The translations under genes and the position numbers were made by a program. Below are positions 16,346 to 38,339 of a DNA stretch of 64,000 nucleotides, piece by piece. Source of the stretch: Sinorhizobium fredii NGR234 (GTDB lineage Bacteria; Pseudomonadota; Alphaproteobacteria; Rhizobiales; Rhizobiaceae); NCBI RefSeq assembly GCF_000018545.1, contig NC_012586.1, forward strand, positions 1,922,001 through 1,986,000, read 5' to 3'. Below the pieces are notes generated by a model that was given only the letters and a program-made list of their open reading frames with translations, made no database searches and had not been told where the DNA came from. Within the stretch, counting starts at the first letter, position 1. The number at the start of each line of letters is the position of its first letter.

Positions 16346-16515
16346 CGTTTCGCGACACTCCATGCGGCTTGACGGCCGATGCGCATCGTTCGACCGCCGC
16401 ATCGATGGCGACCAAAATCAGTTTGGGCCGGGAAATGCAATCGTTAGAGCCTTTCCTGGTTAAATTGAACCATTCTGTGGAGTGCGTCCCCCGCGGGCCA
16501 GCGACGGGGATAAAC

Positions 16516-19688: not shown

Positions 19689-19749
19689 GGAGGCCCCCAG
19701 GAAGGTTACGCCGTGCTTCCGCTCGCCGCGCCCATGCCGCCAGAATGCA

Positions 19750-20196
19750 CTAAGCTGAACTTTCTACCCGCGATGGCTTGAATTTTGGTTTACTTTGCCG
19801 GCCCCGCAAACGCCACCAGCGGCCGCTAAACCAGACGGCACCGACCCCGCATGTCGCCCCGGCCATTTTGACGGCAAGGTCCTCCAGGCGCGCGTGGCGA
19901 TCCGCCGACAGCATCTGCAGCAATTCGAGCCCGACCGCCGCTCCCAGCACCATGGCGAGAACAAGCGTTATGCGCCGCGGAAAGGCCGTCGCGAAGAGCA
20001 AGCCCATAAGCCCGTATGCGCCAAACCGCTCGACGTGAACCCACGTGCCGACATGCGGACGCATGCCGATCGGCGACAGCGTCGAGTAGGCGATCAGCGC
20101 CAACAGGAGCCATGCGAGCGCCTTGGCCGCGCGCCGCAAATCCATGATCCGCTGCCTCATATCTTCGGCCACCCCGCCGCATTGCGGCGTGCTCAT
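19750..20196 (-). CDS. VanZ-like family membrane protein
   Basis: The 148-residue protein has three to four membrane segments and the VanZ-family pattern: a first helix (ALAWLLLALIAYSTLSPIGM) leading into a polar segment, then VERFGAYGLMGLLFATAF, then VLGAAVGLELLQML followed by R-x-x-x-x-ED-L. It overlaps the upstream GT4 gene by ATGA and so is cotranslated with it. VanZ-like proteins occur in many polysaccharide and exosortase loci, but their biochemical role is unclear. The start could also be an internal ATG at 20160 or 20145. Confidence 0.8.
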   Translation of the reverse strand: MSTPQCGGVAEDMRQRIMDLRRAAKALAWLLLALIAYSTLSPIGMRPHVGTWVHVERFGAYGLMGLLFATAFPRRITLVLAMVLGAAVGLELLQMLSADRHARLEDLAVKMAGATCGVGAVWFSGRWWRLRGRQSKPKFKPSRVESSA

Positions 20197-21530
20197 CTGG
20201 CGAGCGCTCGATAGACCGCAAGGGTTCTCTGTGCGACGCCCGCCCAGCTGTGGGTCGATTCCACATGAGCGATCTGCGAACGGACCTCGTCGTCACTCGG
20301 GGGATTTTCGATCTTCCTGGCAATCGCGTCGGCAAGGGCGTCGATATCGCCGAGCGGGAAATAGTCATCGGCGGGCAAGCCGAGCTCGCGATTGGCAACG
20401 ATGTCGCTGGCGAGGACCGGCAAGCCGTGGGCCATGGCCTCCAGGAGGGCGATCGGCATCCCTTCATGACTGGAGGGCAGGACGAAGAGCGCCGCATTGG
20501 CAAAGAGTTCCGCCAGCCTGTCGCCCGACTGAAAGCCCGTCAGAACGACGCCGGGCACGGCTTCGGCCATCGCCCTCACCTCATTCGCAAAGGGCGTTTC
20601 GAACTCGGCGCTCCCCGCCAGGACGAGTTTGACGCCGGTATCGCCGAGGCTCGCGAAAGCCCGGATGAGATCGGTCTGGCGCTTCTCGGGAACGAGTCGC
20701 GCAGCAAGCAGAATATAGCCGCGGCTCGTCAGGCCGAACTCGTCGAGTATGCCGGTTCCGGCGCGCCACGGCATAATGGCAACGCCGTTCGGGATGAGGG
20801 ACACCGGCACGGTGTAACGCTCATCCATCGTCTCCACGATGTCCTTCGAAATGGCGATGCGCCCATGCGCAAGCCGCATGCCCAGGCGCTCTCCGAGTTT
20901 CAGCATGCGCTTGGCGAAGGTGCCCCACTTCTGCCGGTCGTAATCATAGCCGTGATGCGTGACCACCACCCTCATGCCCAGGAGCCGCGCCAGGGGAACC
21001 AGCAAGGCGGGGCCGATAGCATGAATATGCAGGACGTCCGGCCGGCGCAGCGCGGCGAAACAGACGCCGACGAAGGTGTGGGCAATGGCTTCGAGCGCCA
21101 TCAATCGCGGCGCCCAGAGCGGGAAGACGCGAACCTCGCCCCAGGAGTAGGAGGAGGATTTTGCGAGATAGCGCCGTCGCCCGATGACATCGACGCTCCA
21201 GCCGAGGGCGACCAGTCTGGCGGAGAGCATCTCGACATGTTTCTCCACGCCGCCCTGCACGTCCGGTATGCCGCGCAGTCCCAGCATCATCACACGCGGA
21301 CGCGCAGCAAGGGACGGGTGAAACCCGTCGCGTTCCTCCGCCGACAATGCCACGCCGCCGAGGCCGAAGGAAGACCCTTCGAGCAGCGCGGCGGTCGCAC
21401 CGTCCTGCACATGGACCGGGAGCAGCTTTTCGGGAAACCGCTCGACGCCGCCACGAGCGTTGCGCACCGACGCCACCGAACCTCTCGGCTGCTGCGGACC
21501 GTCTCGCGAGACTGCGGTCTGACTGCTCAT
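20193..21530 (-). CDS. Glycosyltransferase family 4 with an N-terminal extension
   Basis: The GT-B core runs from about residue 78 (RVMMLGLRGIPDVQGGVEKH) to the end. It has the donor-binding motif region SSHEGMPIALLEAMAHGLPV with the E-x7-E pattern typical of GT4 retaining enzymes. The first 77 residues are polar, low in complexity and without a recognised domain, unusual for this family. The ATG at 21530 has AGGA five bases upstream, so the extension appears to be translated. The gene follows the other GT4 gene by 114 bp and overlaps the VanZ gene. Confidence 0.88.
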   Translation of the reverse strand: MSSQTAVSRDGPQQPRGSVASVRNARGGVERFPEKLLPVHVQDGATAALLEGSSFGLGGVALSAEERDGFHPSLAARPRVMMLGLRGIPDVQGGVEKHVEMLSARLVALGWSVDVIGRRRYLAKSSSYSWGEVRVFPLWAPRLMALEAIAHTFVGVCFAALRRPDVLHIHAIGPALLVPLARLLGMRVVVTHHGYDYDRQKWGTFAKRMLKLGERLGMRLAHGRIAISKDIVETMDERYTVPVSLIPNGVAIMPWRAGTGILDEFGLTSRGYILLAARLVPEKRQTDLIRAFASLGDTGVKLVLAGSAEFETPFANEVRAMAEAVPGVVLTGFQSGDRLAELFANAALFVLPSSHEGMPIALLEAMAHGLPVLASDIVANRELGLPADDYFPLGDIDALADAIARKIENPPSDDEVRSQIAHVESTHSWAGVAQRTLAVYRALAR

Positions 21531-21644
21531 GGTTGTCCTGCCCCGGAAGTTTCCCTTTGGACAGCTTTTACGAGCGGAACACTTTCGCCCGGCGTAAGAA
21601 GATCGCTAAACTTTTAAGCGGCTGGCCAAAAACCGAACGTCGGA

Positions 21645-22889
21645 TCAGGCGACGCCGAGCGACGCGTAGAGGTCGAGGGTCCTCGCCCGATAGGCCGCGG
21701 CGGAAAATTCGCTGGAGATCCACGAACGCCCCTCGGCCCCCATGCGGCGGCGCGCTGCCGGCGAAAGCGCCGCCATTGCGCGCAGCGCCCTTGCCAGATC
21801 TTCCGGCTTCCCGGAGGACGCCAGCAACCCGGTTTCACCTTCCCTCACCATTTCCGGAATGCCACCGATCGCCGCGCCGATGACCGGCCGCTGCAGCGCA
21901 TAGGTCTCGAGAAGGCTGATCGGCGCATTCTCGTACCATTCCGAAGGAAGCACGAGGGCGCGGGATTCGCCGATGACGCGATGCAGCTTGTCCCCGGAAA
22001 GATAACCGGCAAAAGTCACGTCTGCGCCGAGTTCGCCCGCCAATCGACGAAGGCTCGCCTCTTCGGGGCCGGTCCCGGCAACAATCAGCCGCTCTCCCGA
22101 AAGGGCGATCGCTCTGATCAGGGTCGCCAGGCCTTTTTCGGGCGCCAGGCGGCCGGCGAAGACAAAATAGTCGCCCTCCTGCCAATCGGTGCGAAAGGTG
22201 GAGACATCGACGAAATTAGGCACGTGGACCATCTTCTCGCGCGGCCAACCCCATTCGGCGAGCTTTTCCAGGTAGAAGCGGCTCGGCACGACGAGCCGAT
22301 CCACCTTGTCGCGGTAGAGGCCGAGCAGCCGATGCAGCATGGTTTCGGCAAGCACCACGGCGCTCAGGGGCACGGAGTCCTTGACGCAGCGATGGCGAAG
22401 CACGTTGTAGATCTTCCCGCCGCGACAGTCTTCGCAGACCTTGCCGTCGCGCAGCATCTTGTAGGACGGGCAGGCGAGCTTGAGATCATGAACCGTCATG
22501 ACCACCGGAATGCCGGCGGATTTCAGGGTGGAGAAAATCGCCGGCGACAGATGGTGGTAGACGTTGTGGGCATGCGCGATCGCCGGGCGCCTGTGCTCGA
22601 TCAGCCGACCGACGTTGCGTTGGGCCTCGAGCGAATAGATGACGCTTGCCGCCTGCACCGCCTTGCGAAACAGGCCCGTCTGCCGGCCATATTCGATCTC
22701 GGAGACGAAATAGTCGGACCAAGGCGTAGGTTCATTGCTGTCGTGCCGCATGGCGAAGGGCACCACGTCCCAGCCGATTTCGGCGAACATGCTCATGTGG
22801 TCGAAGAAGACCACCTCCGCTCCGCCGCGGCGATAGAAGTAGTTGTTGATCGCCAGCAGGCGCTTCCCGGCTTTCTCGAGCACCGGCAT
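21645..22889 (-). CDS. Glycosyltransferase family 4
   Basis: The 414-residue protein starts with the acceptor-side motif LAINNYFYRRGGAEVVFFDH. The family features are HAHNVYHHLSP, a Cys-rich insert (CPSYKMLRDGKVCEDCRGGK), the domain linker VFAGRLAPEKGLATLI and the donor site SEWYENAPISLLETYALQRP. The four-Cys insert is seen in a subset of polysaccharide GT4 enzymes. A perfect ribosome site (AGGAGG, six bases before ATG) sets the start, 9 bp after the deacetylase stop. It would add a sugar to the growing repeat unit. Confidence 0.9.
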   Translation of the reverse strand: MPVLEKAGKRLLAINNYFYRRGGAEVVFFDHMSMFAEIGWDVVPFAMRHDSNEPTPWSDYFVSEIEYGRQTGLFRKAVQAASVIYSLEAQRNVGRLIEHRRPAIAHAHNVYHHLSPAIFSTLKSAGIPVVMTVHDLKLACPSYKMLRDGKVCEDCRGGKIYNVLRHRCVKDSVPLSAVVLAETMLHRLLGLYRDKVDRLVVPSRFYLEKLAEWGWPREKMVHVPNFVDVSTFRTDWQEGDYFVFAGRLAPEKGLATLIRAIALSGERLIVAGTGPEEASLRRLAGELGADVTFAGYLSGDKLHRVIGESRALVLPSEWYENAPISLLETYALQRPVIGAAIGGIPEMVREGETGLLASSGKPEDLARALRAMAALSPAARRRMGAEGRSWISSEFSAAAYRARTLDLYASLGVA

Positions 22890-22898
22890 TTCGGCCTC

Positions 22899-23654
22899 CT
22901 ACCAATCGAGCCGGTCGAGGGCCTCATCGACCGGAAGCACGCGGCAGCCCTTTTCAACGGCATAGCGCACGAGGTTGTCGAAGGTTTCCGGCGTGCAGCC
23001 ATAGGGCGTTGGCCGCGGCGCGACGTCATGCGTGAAGAAGATCAGCCAGCCGGGCTCGGCGACGACGTCGTCGATCCATCGGGTCAGGGTTTGGGCATGC
23101 TGCTCGGGCTGGCGGATCTCGACGGCCCTGAGCATCAGCGGATCCACGGGTCCACGGTTGATGGCCTCGCCGCCGGCGCGGCAGGATCGATACCGCCGGC
23201 GCAGTTCGGGGCGCGCCAGGGGCCAGGCGGCGTTGTAAGGGAAGGCGAAGTTGCGCGCCGGCCGGGCGACGCCGACGCTCTCCAGATACTCGGCATTTCG
23301 GTCGAGATCGGCGGCGAGACCACCGGCGCTACGCACCCGGTGGTGCGCGAAGGTGTGGCAGCCGATCTCGTGGCCGCGCGCCAGCAGTTCCGCGCATCCT
23401 TCCGGCGTGATCAGGGTCCGGTCCTTCTCCACTTGTCCGGCGAGACCACCGGCGATGTAGAAGGTTCCGCGAACGTCGTATCGCTCGAGTGTTGCCGCCC
23501 CTTCGTGAAGCGCGCTGTCCGGCACGTCGTCGAAGGTGAAGGAGACCAGCGGGAGCTCCGTTTTCAGGGAGCGCCGCGCCCGGGCGAGCCGCCAGATTGC
23601 CCGGTTGGCCAGCCGGTCGACAAACGCGCCGATCTTTACTTCCACGTCACGCAT
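22899..23654 (-). CDS. Polysaccharide deacetylase (NodB-homology domain)
   Basis: The 251-residue protein has the carbohydrate esterase 4 motifs: VSFTFDDVPDSAL (TFDD metal site), HEIGCHTFAHHRV (HTxxH metal ligands) and a late FFTHDVAP. It probably removes acetyl groups from an amino sugar in the polymer or its lipid-linked unit. No signal peptide is visible, which suggests cytoplasmic action on a precursor. The start chosen is the ATG at 23654, which overlaps the ligase gene by 8 bp; a longer frame reaching 23756 has no support. Confidence 0.85.
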   Translation of the reverse strand: MRDVEVKIGAFVDRLANRAIWRLARARRSLKTELPLVSFTFDDVPDSALHEGAATLERYDVRGTFYIAGGLAGQVEKDRTLITPEGCAELLARGHEIGCHTFAHHRVRSAGGLAADLDRNAEYLESVGVARPARNFAFPYNAAWPLARPELRRRYRSCRAGGEAINRGPVDPLMLRAVEIRQPEQHAQTLTRWIDDVVAEPGWLIFFTHDVAPRPTPYGCTPETFDNLVRYAVEKGCRVLPVDEALDRLDW

Positions 23655-24978
23655 GAGCGACACGCTTCCTGTTTTCCGGGACGGCACCTTGCGCCACCAC
23701 GGCGCTCGATTGCAGGTGCAGTCCGTAGAGGGCAAAGACGAAAGTGAACCAGACAAAGCTTCCGCCTTCGAAGAAGAGGGTTTCGAGACCGGCGTGGAAG
23801 ATCGTGTAAAGCCAGATGCGGACGTAAAGCCGCGTCAGGGGCGCGTTCTCACGGTCGGACGCGAGGCGCGAAATATCGCGAAGCGGCAGCAGGACGACCC
23901 AGATGAGCGTCAGCAGCAGTCCCGGGAACCCGGTGGTCAATGCAATGTCGAGATAGGAATTGTGGCCGTTCGCAGCAGCCACCGCCCAGGTCTCCACCGA
24001 GCCGCCGCTGTAGACCAGTTCCTCCGTCTGCCAGAACGCCCGAAAACCGTAACCCGTCAACGGTCGCTCGGCGAGTGCCGAGAAAGCGAACCGCCAGATG
24101 TCGGAGCGATTGGTGAATGTCGCATCGATGCCAAGGCCGCTGATGAATTCTCCAAGCGGCCGGAAAACCGCCGAGCCGACGGCGAACAGGTTGAACAGGC
24201 CGACACCGCCGATGACGATCAGGGCACGCAGCGGCCGCATCTTTTCGAACAGCCAGCCGAGGACCAGGATGGCCGGCAGCATCGCCGTCGAGGTCTTCCC
24301 GCCGGTGTTGACGAGGAACAGGAACGACAGCACGAAGATTGTCAGCCCGGCCATGCGCGACCAGGCGCTCGCGACGAAAAGGCCGAAGAAGGCGGCGAGC
24401 ACCATCGCCGAGGCCGCGCTGTTCTTGTGCGGAAAATGGCCGCGCCAAAGGCCGGCATTCATCGGCTCGCGCAGTTCGGACGCCTGATGGATGGCGAGCG
24501 TCGGCTTGAAGAGAATGCCGTAATAGGCGAATGCCAGCATGATCAGGGTGCCGATCCCGAGCATCTTGGCGAAGTGGCGCTCCGAAGCGGGGAGCAGCAG
24601 ATAGATGCTGGCATTGACCGTCATCATCGTCGAGAGAACGATGCCCTTGATGCCGAGCATCGGATGAGCGGAGATCAGCGAGACGAGGAGAAACCAAAAG
24701 CAGAGAATGGCCAGAAGCAGGCGTGGCTGCAGGATGATATCCCGCATCGGATGGAGCAGCCCATAGCCGAGTATCCCGGCGGACAGCAGCAGCGCCAGGA
24801 TCTGGTTCAGGCGGTTGGAGTTGCCGGCGGAAGGATCGAGGATCGCCTCTCCCGTCAGATCGACATAGGGCGTGATCGACACCCACAGAAAGAGAAACAT
24901 CGCCATGAAGAGGAAGGCGCCGACGCGCGCCCTCACAGCGTCCGGCGCACTTGTCTCCCGATAGGCGGCGCTGGTCAT
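23647..24978 (-). CDS. O-antigen ligase / Wzy-like polymerase family membrane protein
   Basis: The protein of about 443 residues has some ten membrane segments and the family's conserved HN motif in the large periplasmic loop (AAANGHNSYLDIALTTGFPG), preceded by RPLTGYGFRAFW. Wzy polymerases and WaaL ligases share this layout, and sequence alone does not separate them; beside a flippase and a Wzz protein, polymerase is more likely. The ATG at 24978 lies 14 bp after the Wzz stop; an upstream frame to 25119 overlaps Wzz and lacks likeness to the family. Confidence 0.83.
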   Translation of the reverse strand: MTSAAYRETSAPDAVRARVGAFLFMAMFLFLWVSITPYVDLTGEAILDPSAGNSNRLNQILALLLSAGILGYGLLHPMRDIILQPRLLLAILCFWFLLVSLISAHPMLGIKGIVLSTMMTVNASIYLLLPASERHFAKMLGIGTLIMLAFAYYGILFKPTLAIHQASELREPMNAGLWRGHFPHKNSAASAMVLAAFFGLFVASAWSRMAGLTIFVLSFLFLVNTGGKTSTAMLPAILVLGWLFEKMRPLRALIVIGGVGLFNLFAVGSAVFRPLGEFISGLGIDATFTNRSDIWRFAFSALAERPLTGYGFRAFWQTEELVYSGGSVETWAVAAANGHNSYLDIALTTGFPGLLLTLIWVVLLPLRDISRLASDRENAPLTRLYVRIWLYTIFHAGLETLFFEGGSFVWFTFVFALYGLHLQSSAVVAQGAVPENRKRVAHA

Positions 24979-24992
24979 TGCCGGCGTAGCTC

Positions 24993-26585
24993 CTATCCGG
25001 CCACGGGCCGCGGGTCGCGGACGTAGCGCCACAGGCCAAGTGCCAGCGCAATCCCGATACCTGCGGCAAGCCCGAACGCGGCACCGGCGATGAGCAGGAT
25101 CGATGTCGGCGGCGGCCAACTGCGCGCATTCGGCGGCAAGGCGCGCGAAATGACGCGGATATTTGTCGTGTCGATCTGCTGGCGCTCGGTGATCTGCTGG
25201 GCACGCGCCAGATGGGTCTCGTAGATCGCTGCCTTGGTGCGGGCATCGCGTTCGAGGTCACGAAGATGGACCTGAGCCTCGTTGTCGGTGAAGACGTTCG
25301 ACTGTTCGGCGTCGGCCTTGGCCCTCAGGGCGTTGAGCGCCGCGCGTTCCCGATCGGAATCCGCCTTGGCGCGCTCGGCTATGCGGCGCGCTTCCTGGTT
25401 GATGGCGGCTTCGAGCGTGGCCCGCTCCGAGCGCGCCGCAGCCAGACGTGGATGCCTTTCGCCATAGGTGAGCTGCATCGCGCCGATCTGCTGCTGCAGG
25501 GCGTTGTACTGCTGGCGCAGGTTCGTCATGTCGGCGGATTCGAAGACCGAGGCGCTGGTCGTCTGTCCTTGGGCAATCGCCGCACTCATCTGCTTGTAGC
25601 GGGTCTCGGCCTGGATGAAGCGTTGCTGGGCCTCGAGGACCTGGGTGTTGAGTTCGCTCGAGAGTTGATTGCTGACGAGTTCGCCATTGGCGGACAGCAA
25701 GCCGTTCTCGCGGCGGAAATCCTCGACTTTCCTTTCGGCCCCGGTGACGTTGCGGCGCAACTCGTCGAGACGCGCATTGAGGTTCTGCGCCACCCGGCCG
25801 GCGCTTTCCGCCGCCGATTGGAAGAGTTCCGCTTCGAAGGCGTCGACGATCGCGTCGGAGAGCGTGACGGCCTTTTCCGGCGTCTCGCTCCAGACCTCGA
25901 GAACGACGACGAAGGAGCGCTCCTCGCGACGCGCCTCGACCCTTTCCGACAAGGCGCGAATGACAGCCAGTTCCTTGTCGGCCTTGCTGTCTCCGGATGA
26001 GAACAGCGAGATCAAGGACGCCAGGGGTGACGGCTTGACGAATTCCCGATCGTTCGTCAGGTCAAGCTTGTCGATGACCCGCTTCAGAACGTTTCGCGAG
26101 GTCAGGATTCTGAGCTTGCTTTCGACTTCCAGCAGCTGCGCATCGCGCTGCGGGTTGCTGGTAAAGACGTCGTCGCTGACGACGTTGAGATTGGAGGGGT
26201 CCACGACGAGATCGGAATAGACGGTGTAGCGCGGCGTCGCCGTCACTGCATAGACAAAGGCGGCGGCGAGGCAGGCAATGAGCGCAAGGACGATCCATCT
26301 TGTCCCGTCACGCAGCCAGAGGATGACGTCATCGATGCCGACGCTGCCGAGATTGTGAAGCTGCGGAAAATACGTCCCGACGATCGCTGGACCGGGCTGG
26401 ACCACCGGCGCGGCCTGAATAACATCCGGCTGTTTCTGCTCCGGAATTTCCTTCTCTTGCGGTGGACGCGCCGTTTCCTCGTCCATCGCCGGAACGAGGT
26501 CCAGCAGCGAGCCGCCCGCGGCGCGCCGCGGGTAACGCGTCTCCAGGCGCAATCCTTGCTCTAAGGGCTCGCTCCGCCGATACAT
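24993..26585 (-). CDS. Wzz/GumC-type polysaccharide chain-length determinant (no kinase domain)
   Basis: The protein of about 530 residues has a Pro-rich cytosolic start and a first membrane segment (about residues 95-115, WIVLALIACLAAAFVYAV). A large periplasmic coiled-coil part rich in A/R/E follows, then a second membrane segment near the end (LLIAGAAFGLAAGIGIALAL). This is the polysaccharide co-polymerase layout. It ends a few residues after the second segment, without the Walker motifs and Tyr cluster of the fused BY-kinase forms. The start at 26585 has GGGGA ten bases upstream; ATG 26606 and GTG 26630 are alternatives. Confidence 0.85.
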   Translation of the reverse strand: MYRRSEPLEQGLRLETRYPRRAAGGSLLDLVPAMDEETARPPQEKEIPEQKQPDVIQAAPVVQPGPAIVGTYFPQLHNLGSVGIDDVILWLRDGTRWIVLALIACLAAAFVYAVTATPRYTVYSDLVVDPSNLNVVSDDVFTSNPQRDAQLLEVESKLRILTSRNVLKRVIDKLDLTNDREFVKPSPLASLISLFSSGDSKADKELAVIRALSERVEARREERSFVVVLEVWSETPEKAVTLSDAIVDAFEAELFQSAAESAGRVAQNLNARLDELRRNVTGAERKVEDFRRENGLLSANGELVSNQLSSELNTQVLEAQQRFIQAETRYKQMSAAIAQGQTTSASVFESADMTNLRQQYNALQQQIGAMQLTYGERHPRLAAARSERATLEAAINQEARRIAERAKADSDRERAALNALRAKADAEQSNVFTDNEAQVHLRDLERDARTKAAIYETHLARAQQITERQQIDTTNIRVISRALPPNARSWPPPTSILLIAGAAFGLAAGIGIALALGLWRYVRDPRPVAG

Positions 26586-26722
26586 CCGTAATTTTTCCCC
26601 ACGCATGCCCTTGACGCCACTGAAGAGCACTGCCGCTGCGTTGCCGCACCGCCTGTTAAGAATTAGGAGTGCAGGGTGAATATTCCGTTAAGCGCTGGCT
26701 GCGGCTGGTAACCTTCAACCGT

Positions 26723-27871
26723 TCAAAAATCGGTCAATAGCCGGCTCCAGCTTTCGGACGCGAGGCCGCCGATATAGATGTCGCCGCCGAGCGCCGCTTG
26801 CTTGATGTCGGCGTGGCGGGTGACCATGCAGAAATAGCCCCGATGGCGGAAGCACAACCACCGCTGGCGCGAAATCGCATTCATCAGGAATGGCTGCGCC
26901 ATGCCGGTGGCGAGGGCATAGCCTTCCGCGTCGAGGCAGGCGTACATTGCCGCGGTGACGTCAGCTTCGCGGCCGTCTTCGCAAAGCAGGTTAAGCACGC
27001 TCGCCATGCCGTTGGGCCTTCCGAAGAACAGGAAGGCGCCGATCGTGCGACCATCGTCGACAACGACCTTCCTGCATTGCAGCGTCCCGAGGCTCCTGTT
27101 CATCGCTGCAAGGTCGACGAGCCAGTCGAACTCGGATTTCGACCAGGTGGGACGGACCGAAAAACGCTCGAGCATCGGTGCCGCGCAACGGAGAAACTCA
27201 TCCAGGCTTGCTGTCCTCGCCTGGCAGCCCGTCGCGACCGTCGGTTTCGATGACGGGCTCCACCATCGCAGCACGCGGTCGATCAACCCCAGTGCGCCAA
27301 CGACCGGACGCGCTCTGAAGATCGGGAGGCGCCGGCCGGCGAGAACGGCTGCGGCGGCGAGCGGCCGGAAGAAGCGCTGCCATTCGAGACTCTGGATCGG
27401 CAGGATGACGCCCCCGCCGGCAACGCAGTGGTCGGCACTTACCGGCGAGGAGCTATCGGAAAAACACAGGTCCTGGCGAACCGCCCGCACGCTGCGGGCG
27501 AGCCGCGCCGCGCCGGCAGCACCCGTCTTGCCATCGACCATGAAGGCGCAAAGTAGACGCGCCACGATCCGGCGGCCATTGACGTCGAACTGCATCGGCA
27601 CCGAAAGAATGGCGCTGTCGATGTCGCCATTGCCCTTTTCATGCACGATGCTGCCCTGTTCAGGGGTATAAAAAGGGGCACCGAAGAAGACGGTGGCGAT
27701 GTAGCGGCAAAGGTCCTCCCCGGCCGCGCGGTCGCGCCTGCGAAACACCTTGTTGAACAATCGTCCGATCGCCGGAATATCGGCGCGTCCCATCGGGCGC
27801 GTGCCGGCCGGGCATGGCGGCTCCACAATGCCCGCCGGATGAGCCGCAATTTTCCGCAACTCAACTCCCAT
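26723..27871 (-). CDS. GNAT-like acyltransferase, paralogue A
   Basis: The 382-residue protein begins with a GNAT-like block (RPMGRADIPAIGRLFNKVFR) and ends in GGLASESWSRLLTDF. The same opening and ending recur in the gene at 30111-31229 (RPLVDADIPAIAGLFQKIFR ... VGEHWSRLIGG), so the two are distant paralogues flanking the flippase and methyltransferase genes. No catalytic residues can be named. It overlaps the flippase stop by 11 bp and so belongs to the polysaccharide operon. It may transfer an acyl or aminoacyl group to the polymer; this is inference from context. Confidence 0.6.
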   Translation of the reverse strand: MGVELRKIAAHPAGIVEPPCPAGTRPMGRADIPAIGRLFNKVFRRRDRAAGEDLCRYIATVFFGAPFYTPEQGSIVHEKGNGDIDSAILSVPMQFDVNGRRIVARLLCAFMVDGKTGAAGAARLARSVRAVRQDLCFSDSSSPVSADHCVAGGGVILPIQSLEWQRFFRPLAAAAVLAGRRLPIFRARPVVGALGLIDRVLRWWSPSSKPTVATGCQARTASLDEFLRCAAPMLERFSVRPTWSKSEFDWLVDLAAMNRSLGTLQCRKVVVDDGRTIGAFLFFGRPNGMASVLNLLCEDGREADVTAAMYACLDAEGYALATGMAQPFLMNAISRQRWLCFRHRGYFCMVTRHADIKQAALGGDIYIGGLASESWSRLLTDF

Positions 27872-29180
27872 GCACTATTCCCACCGGAAACTCGCGTGCC
27901 GCCCGCTCCCGGTCGCGGCGCACGAAGCGCAGGAAAACGCTCCATGTGGCGACCACCATGGCGATCTCGATGAGATAAAAGGAGACGAAGGTGCCGGCCG
28001 GCGGGGCGTACCAGCTCGCCGCGGCAGCAAGCCCGGCCCCGGCGATGCTTCCGAGCCCCATCACGGTGGCCCGGGCGGCATGGTAGCCCGAGGCGCCCAG
28101 GGCTTCCACCGCCACCGACCAGATGGCGAGCGGCACGACCACCCATGCGAGGCCGCGCACAAAGCCGACAAGGGAAACATATTCCTGGCCGAACAAATAA
28201 GGCAGGACCGGCGCGAGCGCGAAGACCGTCAGGCCCGCTGCAAGGCTGATGCCGGTCGCCGCGCCAAGCACGCGCAGAACCCGTTGCAAGGCGTGGTGCA
28301 GGCCGGCCGTCGTCATCCGCGCCGAGCCCGGATAGATGAGGCGGTTGAGCGCCTCGACGGACAGGAAGCTGCTCTCGAGCATCCGCCGCGCCACGCTGTA
28401 GCTCGAAACGATCTCGGCCGTGGTGACGAGGCTCAGGACGAGCAGGTCGGCATTCTGCCTGAGCGCGCGCAGAATGAACGGAATGCTGAAATAGAGGCCC
28501 TGCGGCAATTCCTCCCGTACGATACGGTAACGCGGCGCGCCGAGGCTCTTGATGGCCCAGAGACAGGCCGCGGCCACCAGAACGTGGCAGATGAACTGCC
28601 AGACGGCCCAGGACGCTACGGTCGAAACGCCGAAAGCCAGGCAAGCGAGGGCCGCGGCAACGGTACGCGCCACAGCGAAGCCGACGACGACCTTGTTTGC
28701 GGAGGCGAAATCCGAATGGGCGATGAAGATCTGCTCGGCCAGAACGATGACGCGGACGAGGACGATGTTGGTGACGAGCATCAGCGCAATCACCGCAAAA
28801 TTGGCGAGCGGGTCCGGCGAAAGCGTGAAAAAGAACGGCAACGCGACGGCGCCGGCCAGCATGAGGGCGAGCCCGCTTACCGATGTCAGCAGGATGTTGT
28901 GGCCGAGCATTTCCGGATAGATCGTGCGATCCCTCGCGACGCGCCGCACCAGGCATTCCATGGCGCCCAATCCGCAGAGATGCACGGCAATGCTGGCGAC
29001 TGCGGTGATGGCGACGAAGACGCTGAACTCATCGACGCCGAGAAAACGGGCGAGGATCGCGAAGGTCAGAAGCTGCGCCGCGGAACCGAGCACGAGGCTG
29101 CCGCCGGATGCCACATAGGACAGGATCATCGGCAGGAACGGCTTGTAGCCCCGCGATTCCGTTAAGCCTTCCGAAGACAT
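27861..29180 (-). CDS. Oligosaccharide flippase (Wzx-like, MOP superfamily)
   Basis: The protein of about 439 residues has twelve or more hydrophobic segments in the order expected for polysaccharide flippases, beginning with LPMILSYVASGGSLVLGSAA and ending near FYLIEIAMVVATWSVFLRFV. It would move the lipid-linked repeat unit across the inner membrane. It is the first gene of the minus-strand polysaccharide operon and is divergent from the HemK-like methyltransferase. The start at 29180 has AAGG eight bases upstream; ATG at 29231 and a form to 29300 are possible. Confidence 0.85.
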   Translation of the reverse strand: MSSEGLTESRGYKPFLPMILSYVASGGSLVLGSAAQLLTFAILARFLGVDEFSVFVAITAVASIAVHLCGLGAMECLVRRVARDRTIYPEMLGHNILLTSVSGLALMLAGAVALPFFFTLSPDPLANFAVIALMLVTNIVLVRVIVLAEQIFIAHSDFASANKVVVGFAVARTVAAALACLAFGVSTVASWAVWQFICHVLVAAACLWAIKSLGAPRYRIVREELPQGLYFSIPFILRALRQNADLLVLSLVTTAEIVSSYSVARRMLESSFLSVEALNRLIYPGSARMTTAGLHHALQRVLRVLGAATGISLAAGLTVFALAPVLPYLFGQEYVSLVGFVRGLAWVVVPLAIWSVAVEALGASGYHAARATVMGLGSIAGAGLAAAASWYAPPAGTFVSFYLIEIAMVVATWSVFLRFVRRDRERAAREFPVGIVHGS

Positions 29181-29389
29181 CCGATCTGCCTTGTCGATCT
29201 TGCGCCACGGGATCCGGTATCCAAAGGCCATGGCTTGCCGCAGCCTCCCGCCGATCCCCGGGCGCAGACTAAGGCGCAGAGATGATTGGGCGGTTAACAT
29301 ACGCCCAACAATTGAATTTCAGCTTCCGTTTACCCGAGTGCGCTAGTGTCCGCCGGACCGAAAACCATCCCATAGCCGAAGGAGCGTTC

Positions 29390-30109
29390 GTGCTGCAGCG
29401 CGACAATCTTCCCGACGTCAGCCTGGCGAACAGCCCTTTGCCTCGCCTCGTTCGCTTCATGGACATCGAAATCGAACTCGCGCCCGACGTCCTCGTCCCG
29501 CGCGAGGAGACGGAACTGCTAGGCCGGAACGCCGTTCAGCGGCTTCGCGACCGGACGGGACCGGTGATGGTCATCGACATGTGCTGCGGCTCGGGGAACC
29601 TCGCGCTCGGCATCGCCGCCGCCCTGCCGCTCGCGCAGGTCTTGGGCGCGGACCTCACCGACAGCACCGTCGCGCTCGCCCGCCGCAACGTCGGGCTGCT
29701 GTCGCTGCAGCAGCGCGTGTCAATCCGGCAGGGCGACCTGTTTGCGGCGCTCGAAGGCGACGGCCTCGAAGGCGAGATCGACATGATCGTCTGCAATCCG
29801 CCCTACATCTCGACGTCCCGTCTCGAAGGCGACAGCGCCCATCTGCTCGACAGCGAGCCGCGCGAGGCCTTCGACGGCGGTCCCTACGGCATTTCCATCC
29901 ACCAGCGGCTGATCCGCGATGCCGTCGCCTTCCTGAAACCGGGCGGCTGGCTGCTGTTCGAATTCGGCGAAGGACAGGACCGGCAGGCCGCAGCCCTGCT
30001 CAGCCGCGCCAAAGCCTACGAGCCAGTGAGCTTCGCCCATGACGCGCAGGGCAAGCCGCGCGTCGCCATCGTGCGCAAGATGGGTGCGTCCGGCGACGAG
30101 GGCAGATGA
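29390..30109 (+). CDS. HemK/PrmC-like SAM-dependent methyltransferase
   Basis: The protein of about 239 residues has SAM motif I as VIDMCCGSGNLALGIA and the NPPY signature in DMIVCNPPYIS, typical of methyltransferases acting on a planar nitrogen such as glutamine N5 (HemK/PrmC family). It lacks the usual N-terminal PrmC helical domain, so the substrate is probably not a release factor. The GTG start at 29390 has GAAGGAG five bases upstream, better than the earlier in-frame start at 29282. The next gene starts one base after its stop. Confidence 0.8.
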   Translation: MLQRDNLPDVSLANSPLPRLVRFMDIEIELAPDVLVPREETELLGRNAVQRLRDRTGPVMVIDMCCGSGNLALGIAAALPLAQVLGADLTDSTVALARRNVGLLSLQQRVSIRQGDLFAALEGDGLEGEIDMIVCNPPYISTSRLEGDSAHLLDSEPREAFDGGPYGISIHQRLIRDAVAFLKPGGWLLFEFGEGQDRQAAALLSRAKAYEPVSFAHDAQGKPRVAIVRKMGASGDEGR

Positions 30110-30110
30110 G

Positions 30111-31229
30111 ATGAGCGACATCCGTCCGCTCGTGGATGCCGACATCCCGGCCATTGCCGGCCTGTTTCAAAAGATCTTCCGCAACAGCAACGCGGCCCCG
30201 CCGCCCGCGCTGGTCGACTATCTTCGCTACCTGTACCTGGAGGCGCCCGGCTACGACCCGGAGGTCGCGCCGCTCGTCCACGTCAACGACAGCGGTCGCA
30301 TTTCCGGCTTCGTCGGGGTCAACGCACTGCCGATGCGCTACAAGGGCCGGCACCTGCGCGCCGCCATCTGCGGCTCGCTGATGGTCGAGGGCCGTGAGAG
30401 CGACCCGATGGCCGGCGCCCGGCTCCTGAAGGCCTTCCTGGCCGGGCCGCAAGACCTTTCCTTCAGCGAGACGGCGAGCGAGGTCTCGACGCAAATGTGG
30501 ACGCGGCTGCGTGGCATCGTCCTGCCGCAGTACAGCCTCGATTGGGTCCGCGTCCTGCGCCCCGCCAGCTTCGCGCTCGAGCTTGTCTCGCGCCGGATCG
30601 GACCGACTCGCGTCCTTCGCCCGCTGGCCCAGGCTTTCGACGAGCGCCATCGCGGTAAAATGGGACGCGGCGAACTGCGCTGGTCGGCCGTACCCAAAGA
30701 CGCCGGCCTGCCCGGAGCTCTCCAGATCGCCGACATCGATGCCGGATCCTTTGTCGGGCTCTTCGAAGGCTTGACCAAGCAATTCGCCGTGCAGCCCGCC
30801 TGGGCGGACGGCCAGTTCGAGCATATCCTCCAGGACGCAATCGATAAGCCCGAGTTCGGCGAACCGGTCCTCGCTGCCGTCAAGACCCGCGCGGGGGCTG
30901 CTGTCGGTGCCTTCTTCTACCACCTCAAACCCGGGGGGACCGCGCGGGTTCTGCAGTTGCTTTCGCTGCCGGGGCAGGCAGGTCCCGTACTCGACTGCCT
31001 GATCGATCACGCAGCCGCCCGCGGCGCCGCGGCGCTCCGCGGCCGTACCCAGCCTGCCCTGCTCGAAGCGATGATGGGCCGCCGCATCGGTTTCGTCCAC
31101 GCGGCCTCGACGGTTGTCCACTCGCGCGATGAGGAACTCGTCGACGCCTTCCGGCACGCGCAGGGATTCGTGAATGGCCTCGTCGGAGAACATTGGAGCC
31201 GCCTGATCGGCGGCTCCTTCGATAAATAG
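30111..31229 (+). CDS. GNAT-like acyltransferase, paralogue B
   Basis: The 372-residue protein starts with a GNAT-like block (IRPLVDADIPAIAGLFQKIF) and is related to the product at 26723-27871 over its full length in order and spacing, though identity is low. The start is set by an ATG one base after the methyltransferase stop, so the two are translationally coupled. It faces away from the polysaccharide operon, yet the shared family and short distance suggest the same pathway. The acyl donor and acceptor are unknown. Confidence 0.65.
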   Translation: MSDIRPLVDADIPAIAGLFQKIFRNSNAAPPPALVDYLRYLYLEAPGYDPEVAPLVHVNDSGRISGFVGVNALPMRYKGRHLRAAICGSLMVEGRESDPMAGARLLKAFLAGPQDLSFSETASEVSTQMWTRLRGIVLPQYSLDWVRVLRPASFALELVSRRIGPTRVLRPLAQAFDERHRGKMGRGELRWSAVPKDAGLPGALQIADIDAGSFVGLFEGLTKQFAVQPAWADGQFEHILQDAIDKPEFGEPVLAAVKTRAGAAVGAFFYHLKPGGTARVLQLLSLPGQAGPVLDCLIDHAAARGAAALRGRTQPALLEAMMGRRIGFVHAASTVVHSRDEELVDAFRHAQGFVNGLVGEHWSRLIGGSFDK

Positions 31230-33533: not shown

Positions 33534-34541
33534 TCACTCGCCGATTTCCGCGACCGGCTGCACGAGCTGCGGCCCGAGGTGCAGATAGCGAGTCGCCTTG
33601 CGCTTGGCGGCAATGTCCGCCCACACGCGTTCGACCTGCGCTGCGGAAAGGTCAGCGGCGCGGCCCACGTCTTCGGCGCTCAAGCCGTTGTTGAGGCCGT
33701 AGAGGCACAGGTCCATCCGATCGTAGGGGAGCGAGAAATAGAACTCCTCCTGCGTCTGCTCGAGCGAATAGGTATCGGTGGTCGGCGGCCGTCGGCGAAT
33801 CTCCTCGGGAACGCCAAGATAGGCGGCAAGCGCATAGACCTGCGACTTGTAGAGATGGGCGATCGGCTTGACGTCGGCAGCGCCGTCGCCGTTCTTGACG
33901 AAGAAGCCCTGGTCGTATTCGAGCCGGTTCGGCGTGCCGAGGACCGCGAAGTTCAGCCGGTCGGCGTGATAATATTCGAGCTGCTTGCGGGTGCGCTGCT
34001 TCATATTGGTCGCGGCGACGATACCGAGATAGACGGAAGGCGGCATGCGAAGCTTCGTCTGTTTGCCTTGCGGGTCCTGAACCACCAGCGAGGAGATGTT
34101 GTAACCGTCACCCTCCAGCGCATTGGCGATGACGATCTTCGACGCCCAGCCCGGCCCGTAGTCCGGGACCAGTTCGCGAATGAAGGCGTCGCGCCGCGCA
34201 TAGCAGCCCATGGCGGCAAGCGTCGGCCCGATGTCCTCGACGATTGCCTCGACGCCATAGGTCTCGGCCACCAGCCGGCCGAGCCGGAGGCTTTCGGGAT
34301 CGGAATCGTTCTCCGGCATGAACAGGCAGAAGACGTTTTTCGCGCCGACGGCGCGCACCGCGAGCGCCACCGAGACGCTCGAATCGATGCCGCCCGAAAG
34401 GCCGAGCACAAGCCCGCGCTTGCGCATGCCGCGCAATTGGGCGCGCAAGCCCGCGACGATGCGATCGGTCTCGGCGGCTCCGTCGATCTTCAAGGCATCG
34501 GCGGAGAAAGTGAACCTTTCCTGGTCCGGGTGGATGTTCAT
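33534..34541 (-). CDS. nadE: NAD(+) synthetase, short ammonia-dependent type
   Basis: The 335-residue protein has the ATP-pyrophosphatase loop LGLSGGIDSSVSVALA (about residues 46-61) and the NAD synthetase segments VLGTPNRLEYDQGFFVKNGD and ADVKPIAHLYKSQVYALA. It forms NAD from deamido-NAD, ATP and an amino donor. It lacks the N-terminal nitrilase domain of glutamine-dependent NadE, so it uses free ammonia or a partner glutaminase. It overlaps the AMP-ligase gene by ATGA in an operon with an acyl carrier protein and an asparagine synthetase, which suggests a dedicated role beyond general NAD supply. Confidence 0.85.
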   Translation of the reverse strand: MNIHPDQERFTFSADALKIDGAAETDRIVAGLRAQLRGMRKRGLVLGLSGGIDSSVSVALAVRAVGAKNVFCLFMPENDSDPESLRLGRLVAETYGVEAIVEDIGPTLAAMGCYARRDAFIRELVPDYGPGWASKIVIANALEGDGYNISSLVVQDPQGKQTKLRMPPSVYLGIVAATNMKQRTRKQLEYYHADRLNFAVLGTPNRLEYDQGFFVKNGDGAADVKPIAHLYKSQVYALAAYLGVPEEIRRRPPTTDTYSLEQTQEEFYFSLPYDRMDLCLYGLNNGLSAEDVGRAADLSAAQVERVWADIAAKRKATRYLHLGPQLVQPVAEIGE

Positions 34542-36085
34542 TCTGCGGCCTCCAATGTTTCGGCCGCCAGCCTGCGGCTCACCTTGCCCGTGTCCGTCTT
34601 CGGGAGCTCGGCGCGGAATTCGACGACCTTCGGCACCATGAAGTCCTCGAGGTGACGGGCGCAGTGGCGAATGATGTCCTTCTCTGTAACGGTCGGATCG
34701 GAGAGGACAACGAGGGCGCCGATGGCAGCCCCGAGCACCGGGTCGGGAATGCCGATGACGACGGCCTCTGCGATACCCGGATGCGCATGCAGGACGGTCT
34801 CGACCTCCTTCGGCGCCACCTTCTCGCCGCGCGTCTTGATGATGTCGTCCTTGCGGCCGACGAAATAGAGGAACCCCTCAGCGTCGGTGCGGAAGAGATC
34901 GCCCGTGTAGAGCACCTTTTCCCAGGGGTTGGGCCCGGGGCGCAGCATGCGCTCGGTGGCCGCCTCGTTGCGCCAGTAGCCTTGCATGACATGCGGACCG
35001 CGGATCACCAGTTCGCCCGGCACGCCGGGCGGCACGCGCTTGCCGTCGTCATCGACCACGAAGGCTTCGGTGTTGGGAATGGCGATACCGACTGAACCGG
35101 GCCGGCGATCGAGCTCCTCCGGCGGCAGATAGGTGCAGCGTTTGCACTCCGTCAGGCCGTACATGGAATAGAGCCGGGCGGAGGGAAAAAGCTCTCGCAG
35201 GCGCGCGATATGTGCCGGCGGCAGGGCCGCGGCGGTATTGGAGATATAGCGAAGGCTCGCCAGGAAGCCGGGTTCGAGGTCGCGCATCTGCAGGATCATC
35301 GCGGCCATCGTCGGGACCAGCGGGAAGCCGGTGACGCCTTCGGCGCGAATGCGTTCGAAGATCGCCTGCGGGAAGGCGAAGGATTTTTCCAGCACGAGCG
35401 TAGCGCCAAGCCGGATCGCCATCAAAAGCTGATAAAGGCCGTAGTCGAAGGCCAGCGGCAGGACGTTGAGGATGACGTCGTCCGGGGTGTTGCGCAAGTA
35501 GGTGGTAATCGAGTGAGACGCCGCATCGATATTGCGATGCGTCATCATCACGCCCTTCGGACGGCCCGTCGATCCGGAGGTATAGATCAGCATGGCAAGA
35601 TCGACGTCGATGCCGCCGTGCAGGACGAGCACCGGCTCGGCCTCCAGGCACGCCTCGAAAGAGGCCGCGCCTTCCGGCGTGCGGCCGCCCGGCGTCGCGG
35701 TCGAAGCGACGAAAAGCGGCTTCGCGGACGAAAGCGCCCGCGCCTCCGCGACGATCGGCATCAGTTTCGCCTGGGTCAGAATCGCCGCCGCCTCGCAATC
35801 GGTAATGATATAGGCGAGCTTGTCGGCCTTCGTGGAGGCATTGACCGGGCTGAAGGTCGCGCCGGCCTTGAGGATGGCGAAGATCGCCACTGCCGCTTCC
35901 CAGCAATTGTCCATGAAGACCAGGACGCGGTCGTTGGCATTCACTCCGCTCGCGGCAAGTGCGGCGGCGAGCCGGGACGAAAGATCGTCCAGTTCGTCGT
36001 AGCTCAGCCGCGTGCGATCGGTGACCAGCGCCGTCTTTGTCCCGTACGCCGCGGCGTTCCTGATAAGGAATTGCTCGAACCTCAT
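34538..36085 (-). CDS. AMP-dependent acyl-CoA/acyl-ACP synthetase
   Basis: The 515-residue enzyme has the adenylate-forming motifs in order: YTSGSTGRPKGVMMTHRN (A3, about residue 169), YGLTECKR (A5), YTGDLFRTDAEGFLYFVGR with DDIIKTRGEKV (A7-A8), and a C-terminal lysine in ELPKTDTGKVSRR (A10). It activates a carboxylic acid as its adenylate and passes it to a thiol. An acyl carrier protein lies 27 bp upstream, so loading of that carrier is the likely job. It resembles the acyl-CoA ligases of exosortase-linked polysaccharide loci. The acid is unknown. Confidence 0.88.
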   Translation of the reverse strand: MRFEQFLIRNAAAYGTKTALVTDRTRLSYDELDDLSSRLAAALAASGVNANDRVLVFMDNCWEAAVAIFAILKAGATFSPVNASTKADKLAYIITDCEAAAILTQAKLMPIVAEARALSSAKPLFVASTATPGGRTPEGAASFEACLEAEPVLVLHGGIDVDLAMLIYTSGSTGRPKGVMMTHRNIDAASHSITTYLRNTPDDVILNVLPLAFDYGLYQLLMAIRLGATLVLEKSFAFPQAIFERIRAEGVTGFPLVPTMAAMILQMRDLEPGFLASLRYISNTAAALPPAHIARLRELFPSARLYSMYGLTECKRCTYLPPEELDRRPGSVGIAIPNTEAFVVDDDGKRVPPGVPGELVIRGPHVMQGYWRNEAATERMLRPGPNPWEKVLYTGDLFRTDAEGFLYFVGRKDDIIKTRGEKVAPKEVETVLHAHPGIAEAVVIGIPDPVLGAAIGALVVLSDPTVTEKDIIRHCARHLEDFMVPKVVEFRAELPKTDTGKVSRRLAAETLEAAE

Positions 36086-36112
36086 GCTCGTGAACCCCGC
36101 CCCTACCGCCGT

Positions 36113-36376
36113 TTACGCCGTGACCGGCACGGCTTTTGCCGCGATGAAGGCAGAGATGCGCGCCAGCGAATCGAGATTCGCCGGAACGATATCGGCATCC
36201 CCCATCACGATACCGAACTGGTCCTCGATGAAGGCGACGAGTTCGAGGACGCCGGTCGAATCGATGATGTCGTTCTCGATCAGCGAGGCGGTATCGTCGA
36301 GGTCGTAGGAGGTGTCGCCGAACAGGAAGTTCTCGATGATGAAGGTCTTGACCTTCTCTTTGATCGCCTGGGTCAT
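36113..36376 (-). CDS. Acyl carrier protein
   Basis: The 87-residue protein has the four-helix carrier layout with the phosphopantetheine serine in NDIIDSTGVLELVAFIED, where the usual DSL is DST. The ATG at 36376 has GGAAAGGAAAA upstream; a longer frame to 36439 is not needed. It sits between the asparagine synthetase gene (25 bp away) and the AMP ligase gene. It probably carries the acid activated by the ligase. It is distinct from fatty-acid AcpP in its serine motif. Confidence 0.9.
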   Translation of the reverse strand: MTQAIKEKVKTFIIENFLFGDTSYDLDDTASLIENDIIDSTGVLELVAFIEDQFGIVMGDADIVPANLDSLARISAFIAAKAVPVTA

Positions 36377-36401
36377 ATGTTTTCCTTTCCCTGTTTCCGT
36401 T

Positions 36402-38339
36402 TCAGGCCGCTTCCGCCTTGCGGATGCGCGTGCCTGCAAATGTCTGCAGCCAGAGCTGCGTCGAGAGAATGCCGACGAAAGCCGCGTTGTCGCGGAAGCC
36501 CGAGGCGGGACGCGAGCGGCATTTCTCGTAGAGCTTCGTCACCGCCTTGGCATTGAAGAGGCCACCCTCGGCCACGGCATCCTCGCTCAGGGCGCCGCGG
36601 ACGTAATCGAGCTCACCCGGCCCGGTGAAAGAGTGGCTGTCGGGGGCGCGATAGGGCTGCTTCACCCGCCTGCCGATGGCGGGCGGCAGAAGATCCTTCG
36701 TTGCCTCGCGCAGGATGTGCTTCTCGGTAAGGCCTTTGAGCTTCATCTCCGGCGGCAGCTTCGCGGCAAACTCGACCAGCCGGTGGTCGAGGAAGGGGAA
36801 GCGTCCCTCGATCCCATGGGCCATCGCCATCCGGTCGCCCTGGCTGGAGAGGATGTAGCCCGGCAACAGGAAACGGCTTTCGAGATATTGCGCCTGATGC
36901 AACGGATGCCATCGGCGGAAATCCTGCGGGAGCCGGCCGATGAGCTCCGCAGCGGCATCGTAGTCCTTCAGTTCAGCGCGCAGGTCGCCGGAAAAGAACA
37001 GTTTCGTCGCAGCGGTGCCCTTGAGGCGCGGCCGATGCGAGAAGAGCGGGTCGTCGAGCGGCGCGTCGCCGGCGCCGAAGAAGGCGGCGAGATATTCCGG
37101 CGACTGCTGCTTGAGACCCGGGAGATAAGGATAGAGCTTGCGGAAGAGATGCGGCCGGATGCTCGAGCCCGGCTGTCGCCCGCAGAAACGGCGCACCCGC
37201 GCTTCCTTGAAGATGTCGTAGCCCGCGAAGACCTCGTCGGCGCCTTCGCCGGTCAGCACGACCTTAAGCCCGGCCTCGCGCACCAGCCCGGACAATTGGT
37301 AGAGCGGGGCTGGCGCCGTGCGGATGATCGGTCTCTCGGTGAAGCGGATGACATCCGGGAAGACCTTGGCGATGTCGCCGGCGCGGCAGGCGATCGCGCT
37401 ATGCTGCGTGCCGAGTGCTGCGGCCATTTCCAGCTGGAAGGCGCTTTCGTCGTGTTCGGCGCTGTCGAAGGTAACCGAGAAGGTCCGAAGCCCCTGCGGC
37501 GTCATGCCGGCCGCCAGCGCCGAGACGATCGACGAATCGAGCCCGCCGGAGAGATACGCGCCGACCGGCACGTCGGCCCGCATGCGGATGCGGGTCGCGT
37601 CCGCCAAAAGGGCGCGCAGTTCCTCGGCGGCACTTCCTTCGTGTGTGTAGCCTGAGGGCTGATCCCGGTCCGGGTATTGAAGCTGCCAGTAGGGTCTCGT
37701 CGTGACGCCACGCTGGTCGACGATCATCACATTGGCCGGTTCAAGCTCGAGGATATTGCGAAACGGCGTGCGGGGCGCGATCGGCGCCCAGAGGGTAAAG
37801 ATCTGGTCGAGCGCGATCGGGTCGATCTCCGCCGAAACGCCCGGCACCTGAAGGAGCGCCTTGACCTCGGAGGCGAAATAGAACGTGCCGCCCTGCGCGG
37901 TATAGAAAAGCGGGCGCACCCCCATCCGGTCGCGCGCCAGCATCATCCGGCAGCGCCGGGCATCCCAGATCGCGAAGGCAAAATCGCCGTTGAGCAGCGA
38001 AACGCAATCCTCGCCCATCTCGTCATAGAGGTGGAGGATGACCTCGGTGTCGCTCGCAGTGCGGAAGCGGCGGCCCTTGGCGCGAAGCTCGTCCCGGAGT
38101 TCCACATAGTTGAAGATTTCGCCGTTGAAGGCGATCGTCAGTTCGCCACTCGCATCCGGCATCGGCTGCTGGCCGTCGCCGAGCCCGACGATGGAGAGCC
38201 GCACATGACCAAGCCCGGCCTCGGGCACGGTGAAAATGCCCTGTCCGTCCGGGCCCCGATGCGCAATCGCGGCCGTCATGCTTTCGAGAAGCGCCCTTCC
38301 GTCCCGTATCGAGCCAAAATAGCCGCCAAAACCACACAT
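36402..38339 (-). CDS. asnB: Asparagine synthetase-like amidotransferase (glutamine-hydrolysing)
   Basis: The 645-residue protein starts MCGFGGYFG, giving the N-terminal Cys nucleophile of class II glutaminases after Met removal. The glutaminase domain runs to about residue 200 (RGPDGQG; FNGEIFNY). The synthetase domain has the PP-loop GAYLSGGLDSSIVSALA and the tail region GIEGRFPFLDHRLVEFAA. It converts a carboxylate to an amide using glutamine and ATP. Its place before an ACP and an AMP ligase suggests it acts in a special pathway, not in asparagine supply. The start is fixed by the required Cys; a longer frame to 38414 is not used. Confidence 0.9.
   Translation of the reverse strand: MCGFGGYFGSIRDGRALLESMTAAIAHRGPDGQGIFTVPEAGLGHVRLSIVGLGDGQQPMPDASGELTIAFNGEIFNYVELRDELRAKGRRFRTASDTEVILHLYDEMGEDCVSLLNGDFAFAIWDARRCRMMLARDRMGVRPLFYTAQGGTFYFASEVKALLQVPGVSAEIDPIALDQIFTLWAPIAPRTPFRNILELEPANVMIVDQRGVTTRPYWQLQYPDRDQPSGYTHEGSAAEELRALLADATRIRMRADVPVGAYLSGGLDSSIVSALAAGMTPQGLRTFSVTFDSAEHDESAFQLEMAAALGTQHSAIACRAGDIAKVFPDVIRFTERPIIRTAPAPLYQLSGLVREAGLKVVLTGEGADEVFAGYDIFKEARVRRFCGRQPGSSIRPHLFRKLYPYLPGLKQQSPEYLAAFFGAGDAPLDDPLFSHRPRLKGTAATKLFFSGDLRAELKDYDAAAELIGRLPQDFRRWHPLHQAQYLESRFLLPGYILSSQGDRMAMAHGIEGRFPFLDHRLVEFAAKLPPEMKLKGLTEKHILREATKDLLPPAIGRRVKQPYRAPDSHSFTGPGELDYVRGALSEDAVAEGGLFNAKAVTKLYEKCRSRPASGFRDNAAFVGILSTQLWLQTFAGTRIRKAEAA

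Follow-up and report, generated by a model that had tools for sequence, protein, structure and literature searches.

Why should a gene for an NAD synthetase lie in one operon with genes for an acyl carrier protein (ACP), an AMP-forming ligase and a glutamine amidotransferase? This question is raised by an operon of Sinorhizobium fredii NGR234, which we analysed within a stretch of 64,000 nucleotides (NC_012586.1, positions 1,922,001-1,986,000; hereafter the window, to whose positions all coordinates refer). We propose, as a reading that we hold to be evenly balanced between right and wrong, that the operon encodes a cassette for the modification of acyl groups on a carrier protein. In this cassette an aspartate-like acid would be loaded, amidated by NadE with or without AsnB, methylated, and transferred to a glycan by a GNAT acyltransferase.

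The operon has the architecture that was originally predicted for it, as both coordinates and family matches confirm (Table 1). Its four minus-strand genes are tightly packed, with a gap of 25 bp between asnB and acp (36377-36401), a gap of 27 bp between acp and the ligase gene (36086-36112), and an ATGA overlap between the ligase gene and nadE (34538-34541). AsnB contains both a glutaminase and a synthetase domain and begins with MCGFGG. The best NCBIfam matches of the ACP are ACP families, all under cut-off; an alternative, longer open reading frame (ORF) with a TTG start at 36439 would overlap asnB. The NadE was described as a short form without its own glutaminase, and this is borne out by a domain search of the protein, which returned PF02540 alone. 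An A+T-rich stretch 5' of asnB (38400-38640) may hold the operon promoter. The operon is also present on S. meliloti pSymB, where minCDE adjoins it as well; in strain ml56 an aldo/keto reductase gene lies in between. Among the listed plasmid matches to the window, those from S. fredii rank best, at 90.3-91.7% identity; S. americanum and S. meliloti pSymB rank lower.

Table 1. Features of the operon and its surroundings (window positions).
Feature	Position	Strand	Description
AsnB-type glutamine amidotransferase, operon gene 1	36402..38339	-	645 aa; TIGR01536 502 bits, above cut-off; PF00733 + GATase_7
Acyl carrier protein	36113..36376	-	87 aa, ATG start; carrier motif IDSTG; homologues in 17/17 fetched loci
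AMP-forming ligase	34538..36085	-	515 aa; PF00501 327 bits; pocket D-Y-T-K-R, VinN-like
NadE-family protein	33534..34541	-	335 aa; NF002048 533 bits (cut-off 313); PF02540 166 bits
PrmC/HemK-like methyltransferase paralogue	29282..30109	+	hemK_fam 151.7 bits, above cut-off; true start may be ATG 29459
Tandem-GNAT acyltransferase A	30111..31229	+	372 aa; 1 bp after methyltransferase gene
Tandem-GNAT acyltransferase B	26723..27871	-	382 aa; inside exopolysaccharide cluster; 31% identical to A
Surface-polysaccharide cluster	15323..29300	-	Capsule_synth-like, three glycosyltransferases, polysaccharide deacetylase, Wzy-like, Wzz/GNVR, GNAT B, flippase

The four genes form a conserved unit. We fetched 17 loci, namely the listed matches in the order and phylum scans plus the over-cut-off match in the class scan, with the own genome excluded; genes in all fetched loci were called by our own codon-score method. 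NadE, ligase and ACP occurred together in 17 of 17 loci and AsnB in 16 (it was not found in L067), with cassette NadE identity as low as ~54% and at least three gene orders. A larger set, the named loci, comprised the best 80 of at least 571 loci encoding a relative of the query, and these 571 may include ordinary NadE. The 80 were ranked by match to the first sequence of the alignment (from L072), which biases the host list to the kin of that sequence, and up to 10 kb were fetched on each side of NadE, some stretches ending at contig ends. All four genes were found in 60 of these 80 loci and NadE, ligase and ACP without AsnB in another 17; of the remainder, one lacked the ligase only, one had NadE and ligase, and one had NadE alone. 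NadE, ligase and ACP were found together in 77 of the 80 loci and AsnB in 61, and in 74 both ligase and ACP lay within 5 kb of NadE. The loci were selected through NadE, which favours the count of NadE as the constant partner. As a control, 16 loci around a housekeeping NadE contained no ligase or ACP and one weak AsnB match (65 bits). The MCG start of AsnB was readable in 50 of 75 proteins, start sites being uncertain, and in 15 of 16 loci the tblastn alignment starts from the first residue of AsnB. A gene-neighbourhood survey was suggested along with the original prediction, and the one made here, through NadE, found the sets conserved together. The same survey did not bear out the idea of a distinct rhizobial system, and we reject it: hosts are alpha-, beta- and gammaproteobacteria together with single metagenome-assembled genomes labelled Myxococcota, Deltaproteobacteria and Chloroflexi, and the titles of the named loci are mostly Burkholderiales-, Lysobacter- or Pseudoxanthomonas-type and other gammaproteobacteria.

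Is the NadE of this unit the NAD synthetase of the cell? It resembles ammonia-dependent NadE in its PF02540 match, its SGGIDSS P-loop and its GDGAAD motif, but it differs in a long segment that separates two family-matching halves, in belonging to its own subfamily, in its carrier-protein context, and in the presence of another NadE elsewhere in the genome. The other NadE lies in a 573-aa frame on another replicon, and the window copy is the only NF002048-type NadE over cut-off in the own genome. Likewise, a clear separate long NadE was found in 15 of the 17 other cassette genomes, and the remaining two have a weaker long-frame match. Because separate NadE copies exist, we reject the window NadE as the housekeeping copy. 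This agrees with the earlier suggestion that NadE was recruited, which had been made to depend on the presence of another, chromosomal NadE. The cassette-type NadE has a scattered distribution: with the own genome counted, it occurs in 6 of 160 genomes of the order and 12 of 299 of the phylum, and over the family cut-off in 2 of 240 of the class. The SGGxDS motif is kept in 97 of 97 cassette NadE proteins and the GDGxAD-type region in 95 of 97. The nicotinate-side residue given in the available part of PMC6946656 could not be mapped safely onto the NF002048 subfamily, and the available part of PMC3376133 offers no sequence mark that settles the NadE substrate.

The ligase gives a clue to the acid. 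A comparison of its residues 150-345 with solved structures gave VinN as the top match (126.7 bits; next 89.7). According to the available portion of PMC11284099, VinN activates 3-methylaspartate, and aspartate at low efficiency, and loads it onto VinL. The loading of (3-methyl)aspartate is through the side-chain carboxyl. D230, F231, S299, K330 and R331 are given as key residues of VinN in PMC11253843. The corresponding residues of the window ligase are D, Y, T, K and R, against D, F, S, K and R in VinN; T replaces S299, and the pocket is of the VinN type. VinN-type enzymes are also marked by a shortened beta13-beta14 loop; compared with VinN alone, the window ligase has no gap in that stretch. 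The vicenistatin starter module VinN/VinL/VinO (and FlvN for Asp) shares a standalone ligase and ACP with the operon. However, VinO is described in the available text as decarboxylating the carrier-bound acid, whereas here NadE and AsnB would amidate it, and no polyketide synthase was recognised among the genes scanned.

Pocket residues could be counted in 94 of the 97 cassette loci, L081, L118 and L147 being left out as having no readable ligase. R331 is present in 91 of 94 ligases when the ORF nearest NadE is taken. In the other three (L069-L071) this ORF is a second ligase, and a closer homologue of the window ligase (53-54% identity, compared with 29-34% for the second ligase) has D-Y-T-K-R. 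With the ligase choice so corrected, D230 is present in 27 of 94 and replaced by another residue in 67; this tally took only ligases with R331, which makes 94 of 94 for R a consequence of the choice. From these residues, recognition of a second carboxyl seems general to the cassette and recognition of an amino group special to the window type. The second ligase of L069-L071 lies before nadE, is fused to a thioesterase (scanned in L069) and is without the VinN-like residues; in L073 a thioesterase alone precedes nadE. The own genome also encodes an AMP-binding protein (L232, C3:969584-970228, ~897-aa frame) with the pocket S-Y-A-T-R, the commonest non-D cassette type.

How is the operon related to exosortase loci? 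The ligase and AsnB families of exopolysaccharide (EPS) loci are already named in NCBIfam, and a likeness of the operon to such ligase, ACP and AsnB sets had been pointed out. It shares with the exosortase A (XrtA/PEP-CTERM) set TIGR03098/TIGR03108/TIGR03099 the ligase and AsnB superfamilies, a standalone ACP and an EPS context, but the window ligase and AsnB fall under both curated cut-offs (TIGR03098, 461 bits against 592; TIGR03108, 441 bits against 817). AsnB is also of the same type as N-acetylglutaminylglutamine amidotransferase (TIGR03104), with 382 bits against a cut-off of 570, and a further AsnB-like protein, with 34% identity, is encoded in the own genome at C2:1153266. No exosortase had been seen near the operon, and a whole-genome search with PF09721 gave no match in the own genome; PF09721 matched in 2 of 18 cassette genomes, distant from the cassette.

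For a direct comparison we used TIGR03098-type loci. A close ligase was found in 26 of 249 genomes; four of these were NadE cassettes, and of the other 22 we fetched 18, of which 8 were over cut-off. All 18 ligases have D230 and R331. The likeness of the operon to ligase, ACP and AsnB sets of exosortase loci is real. None of the 18 loci contained NadE, a PrmC-like enzyme or a tandem GNAT, all of which occur in the window. Conversely, a relative of a pyridoxal-phosphate (PLP) decarboxylase was found in 14 of 18 TIGR03098-type loci (the query itself counted), but in 1 of 97 NadE cassette loci (L110); this contrast is between sets picked by different markers and ignores relatedness. The tblastn query was a single TIGR03099-like protein (417 bits; cut-off 478), and it gave no match in the window. 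We infer that there is one platform with two fates of a free carboxyl, namely removal in TIGR03098-type loci and amidation in the NadE cassette. The TIGR03098-type ligases (L205-L222), with their VinN-like D and R and the usual PLP decarboxylase nearby, suggest a beta-alanyl-type carrier group. We found no paper that explains the chemistry of TIGR03098-type loci in the open-licence literature.

Two further enzymes may belong to the pathway. The methyltransferase and GNAT A genes form a pair 2.3 kb from the operon. The methyltransferase has HemK-family membership and a CNPPY motif in common with PrmC/HemK N5-glutamine methyltransferases, but it is under the cut-off of the PrmC equivalog (TIGR03534; 174.9 against 199.1 bits) and no PrmC_N domain was found in it, although one relative (L122) has PrmC_N; a better PrmC match lies on replicon C3 of the own genome. 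PrmC-like relatives are present in 5 of the 17 and 18 of the 80 cassette loci, as far as these were fetched. They follow the ligase pocket: 22 of 27 loci with a D-type pocket have one, compared with 0 of 67 others (by nearest-ORF ligase, uncorrected, 19 of 24 and 3 of 70). L081, which has no readable ligase, also has a PrmC-like protein. Genome-wide, D-type genomes gave a match to the window protein in 7 of 10 cases (one of these 7 with an internal stop) and non-D genomes in 0 of 7. Relatedness could be the source of this association, and the Fisher values computed take no account of it. GNAT A has GNAT B as its sole other match in the own genome. A double GNAT fold is predicted, in keeping with a tandem GNAT, and the model also resembles N-myristoyltransferases. 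An F5 or C5 GNAT was found in 10 of the 17 and 36 of the 80 cassette loci, as compared with 0 of 18 TIGR03098-type loci.

EPS-type genes are common neighbours of the cassette, and the EPS cluster of the window is our candidate for the acceptor pathway. Of the 80 named loci, 32 contain one or more of four gene clusters with a representative that matches an XrtA/PEP-CTERM-named family (TIGR03013, TIGR03016, TIGR03018 or TIGR03006), cluster names being taken from one representative each. Some cassette loci carry other additions. A KAS III-like protein is found in eight (L080, L083, L085, L087, L102, L103, L108 and L135; one representative scanned), most of which add a small ACP-sized protein and some another GNAT-like protein, and this suggests carrier-bound chain extension. 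Seven Thiomonas-like loci (L101, L104, L121, L122, L123, L127 and L133) gave no AsnB match in the stretch; the neighbours of their cassette are a glutamine synthetase, a sensor kinase and a sigma-54 regulator, as scanned in L122.

Based on these data, we propose the following pathway. The VinN-like ligase would adenylate an aspartate-like amino-dicarboxylic acid, which would be joined to the ACP through the carboxyl beta to the amino group, so that the other carboxyl stays free. NadE may convert this free carboxyl to a carboxamide with ATP and ammonia, and AsnB may provide the ammonia from glutamine or form a second amide. The PrmC-like enzyme would then N-methylate the product, and the tandem-GNAT acyltransferase would transfer the resulting aminoacyl moiety to a precursor of a surface polysaccharide, at an amino or hydroxyl group, the acceptor probably being the EPS of the adjacent cluster. 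In outline, an acid that is activated, carrier-loaded and amidated, as first suggested, is still the best reading of gene content, pocket and linkage, although we infer both the substrate and the chemistry.

Several observations weigh against this proposal. In 19 of the 80 named loci, some of them cut by contig ends, the fetched stretch yielded no AsnB, and therefore the role of AsnB may not be core; in the TIGR03098-type loci, a set chosen by ligase, only 3 of 18 had an AsnB match. The amino-binding D is missing from 67 of 94 cassette ligases, and therefore the link to aspartate does not extend to the cassette in general. R at position 331 is present in 1 of 10 other ANL ligases of the own genome and K-R in 0 of 10, some rows being partial. 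With its GDGAAD region kept, the window NadE may still have NAD activity. In the NadE tree the PrmC association can be judged from only two independent pairs on supported branches, and it is not significant. Finally, in S. meliloti 1021 pSymB GNAT A lies ~8 kb before the matched minC-operon stretch, and ml56 has intervening genes.

Other explanations, which are not mutually exclusive, must be weighed as well. AsnB may itself amidate a carboxyl on the carrier or the glycan, with NadE acting on another small substrate, such as a uronic-acid nucleotide, and the ligase and ACP just supplying an acyl group. AsnB has the glutaminase and synthetase domains needed and is present in most named loci, and the GDGxAD-type region of NadE is almost always kept. 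However, NadE is the steadier partner of ligase and ACP, as the 17 loci without AsnB in the stretch show, even if selection through NadE favours that count, and we consider this explanation unlikely. Alternatively, the cassette product could be a diffusible small molecule or a lipid and not a glycan decoration. A VinN-type ligase with an ACP is a natural-product starter module, KAS III-like proteins (8 of 80 loci) and a few thioesterases occur nearby, and the tandem-GNAT model has a likeness to N-myristoyltransferases. Against it, no large polyketide synthase or nonribosomal peptide synthetase was recognised among the neighbour genes scanned, and EPS-type genes are frequent there; we find it slightly less likely than the first alternative.

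The explanation to which we give least weight makes NadE a plain backup NAD synthetase whose place in the operon is accidental. The family motifs are kept, SGGxDS without exception, and the NCBIfam name of the subfamily is NAD(+) synthase. A chance association is nevertheless improbable, given that the own genome and clearly 15 of 17 others have a long NadE besides, that the linkage persists to ~54% identity and across several gene orders, and that the cassette-type NadE is spread sporadically. We return, then, to the carrier-protein cassette as our preferred reading.

We further propose, more tentatively and with more doubt than conviction, that a branch of the NAD synthetases left NAD metabolism and became a carrier-protein-dependent amide synthetase, acting on the free carboxyl of an ACP-held aspartyl-type group where exosortase-type loci decarboxylate. 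This would yield two surface-polysaccharide decorations, with PrmC-like methylation accompanying an aspartate-type ligase. In the open-licence literature searched we found neither the NadE form of the cassette, nor a substrate derived from the pocket, nor the decarboxylase/NadE contrast; it also gave us no earlier description of the NadE cassette, and no direct precedent around ornithine lipids, cispentacin, VinN, flocs, aspartyl glycans or NAD synthetase. A term search of the available part of PMC1569441 met no terms on ligase, ACP, decarboxylase or amidotransferase.

With the VinN-like pocket, the TIGR03098 ligase family gains a concrete, testable substrate, and from the decarboxylase/NadE contrast one would expect the end groups of the two sets to differ. 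The operon is on pSymB of S. meliloti, a model organism, and the proposal is therefore testable. If it is true, the NAD synthetase family would have a function beyond NAD metabolism, and the name NAD(+) synthase would have to be replaced for many genes that now bear it.

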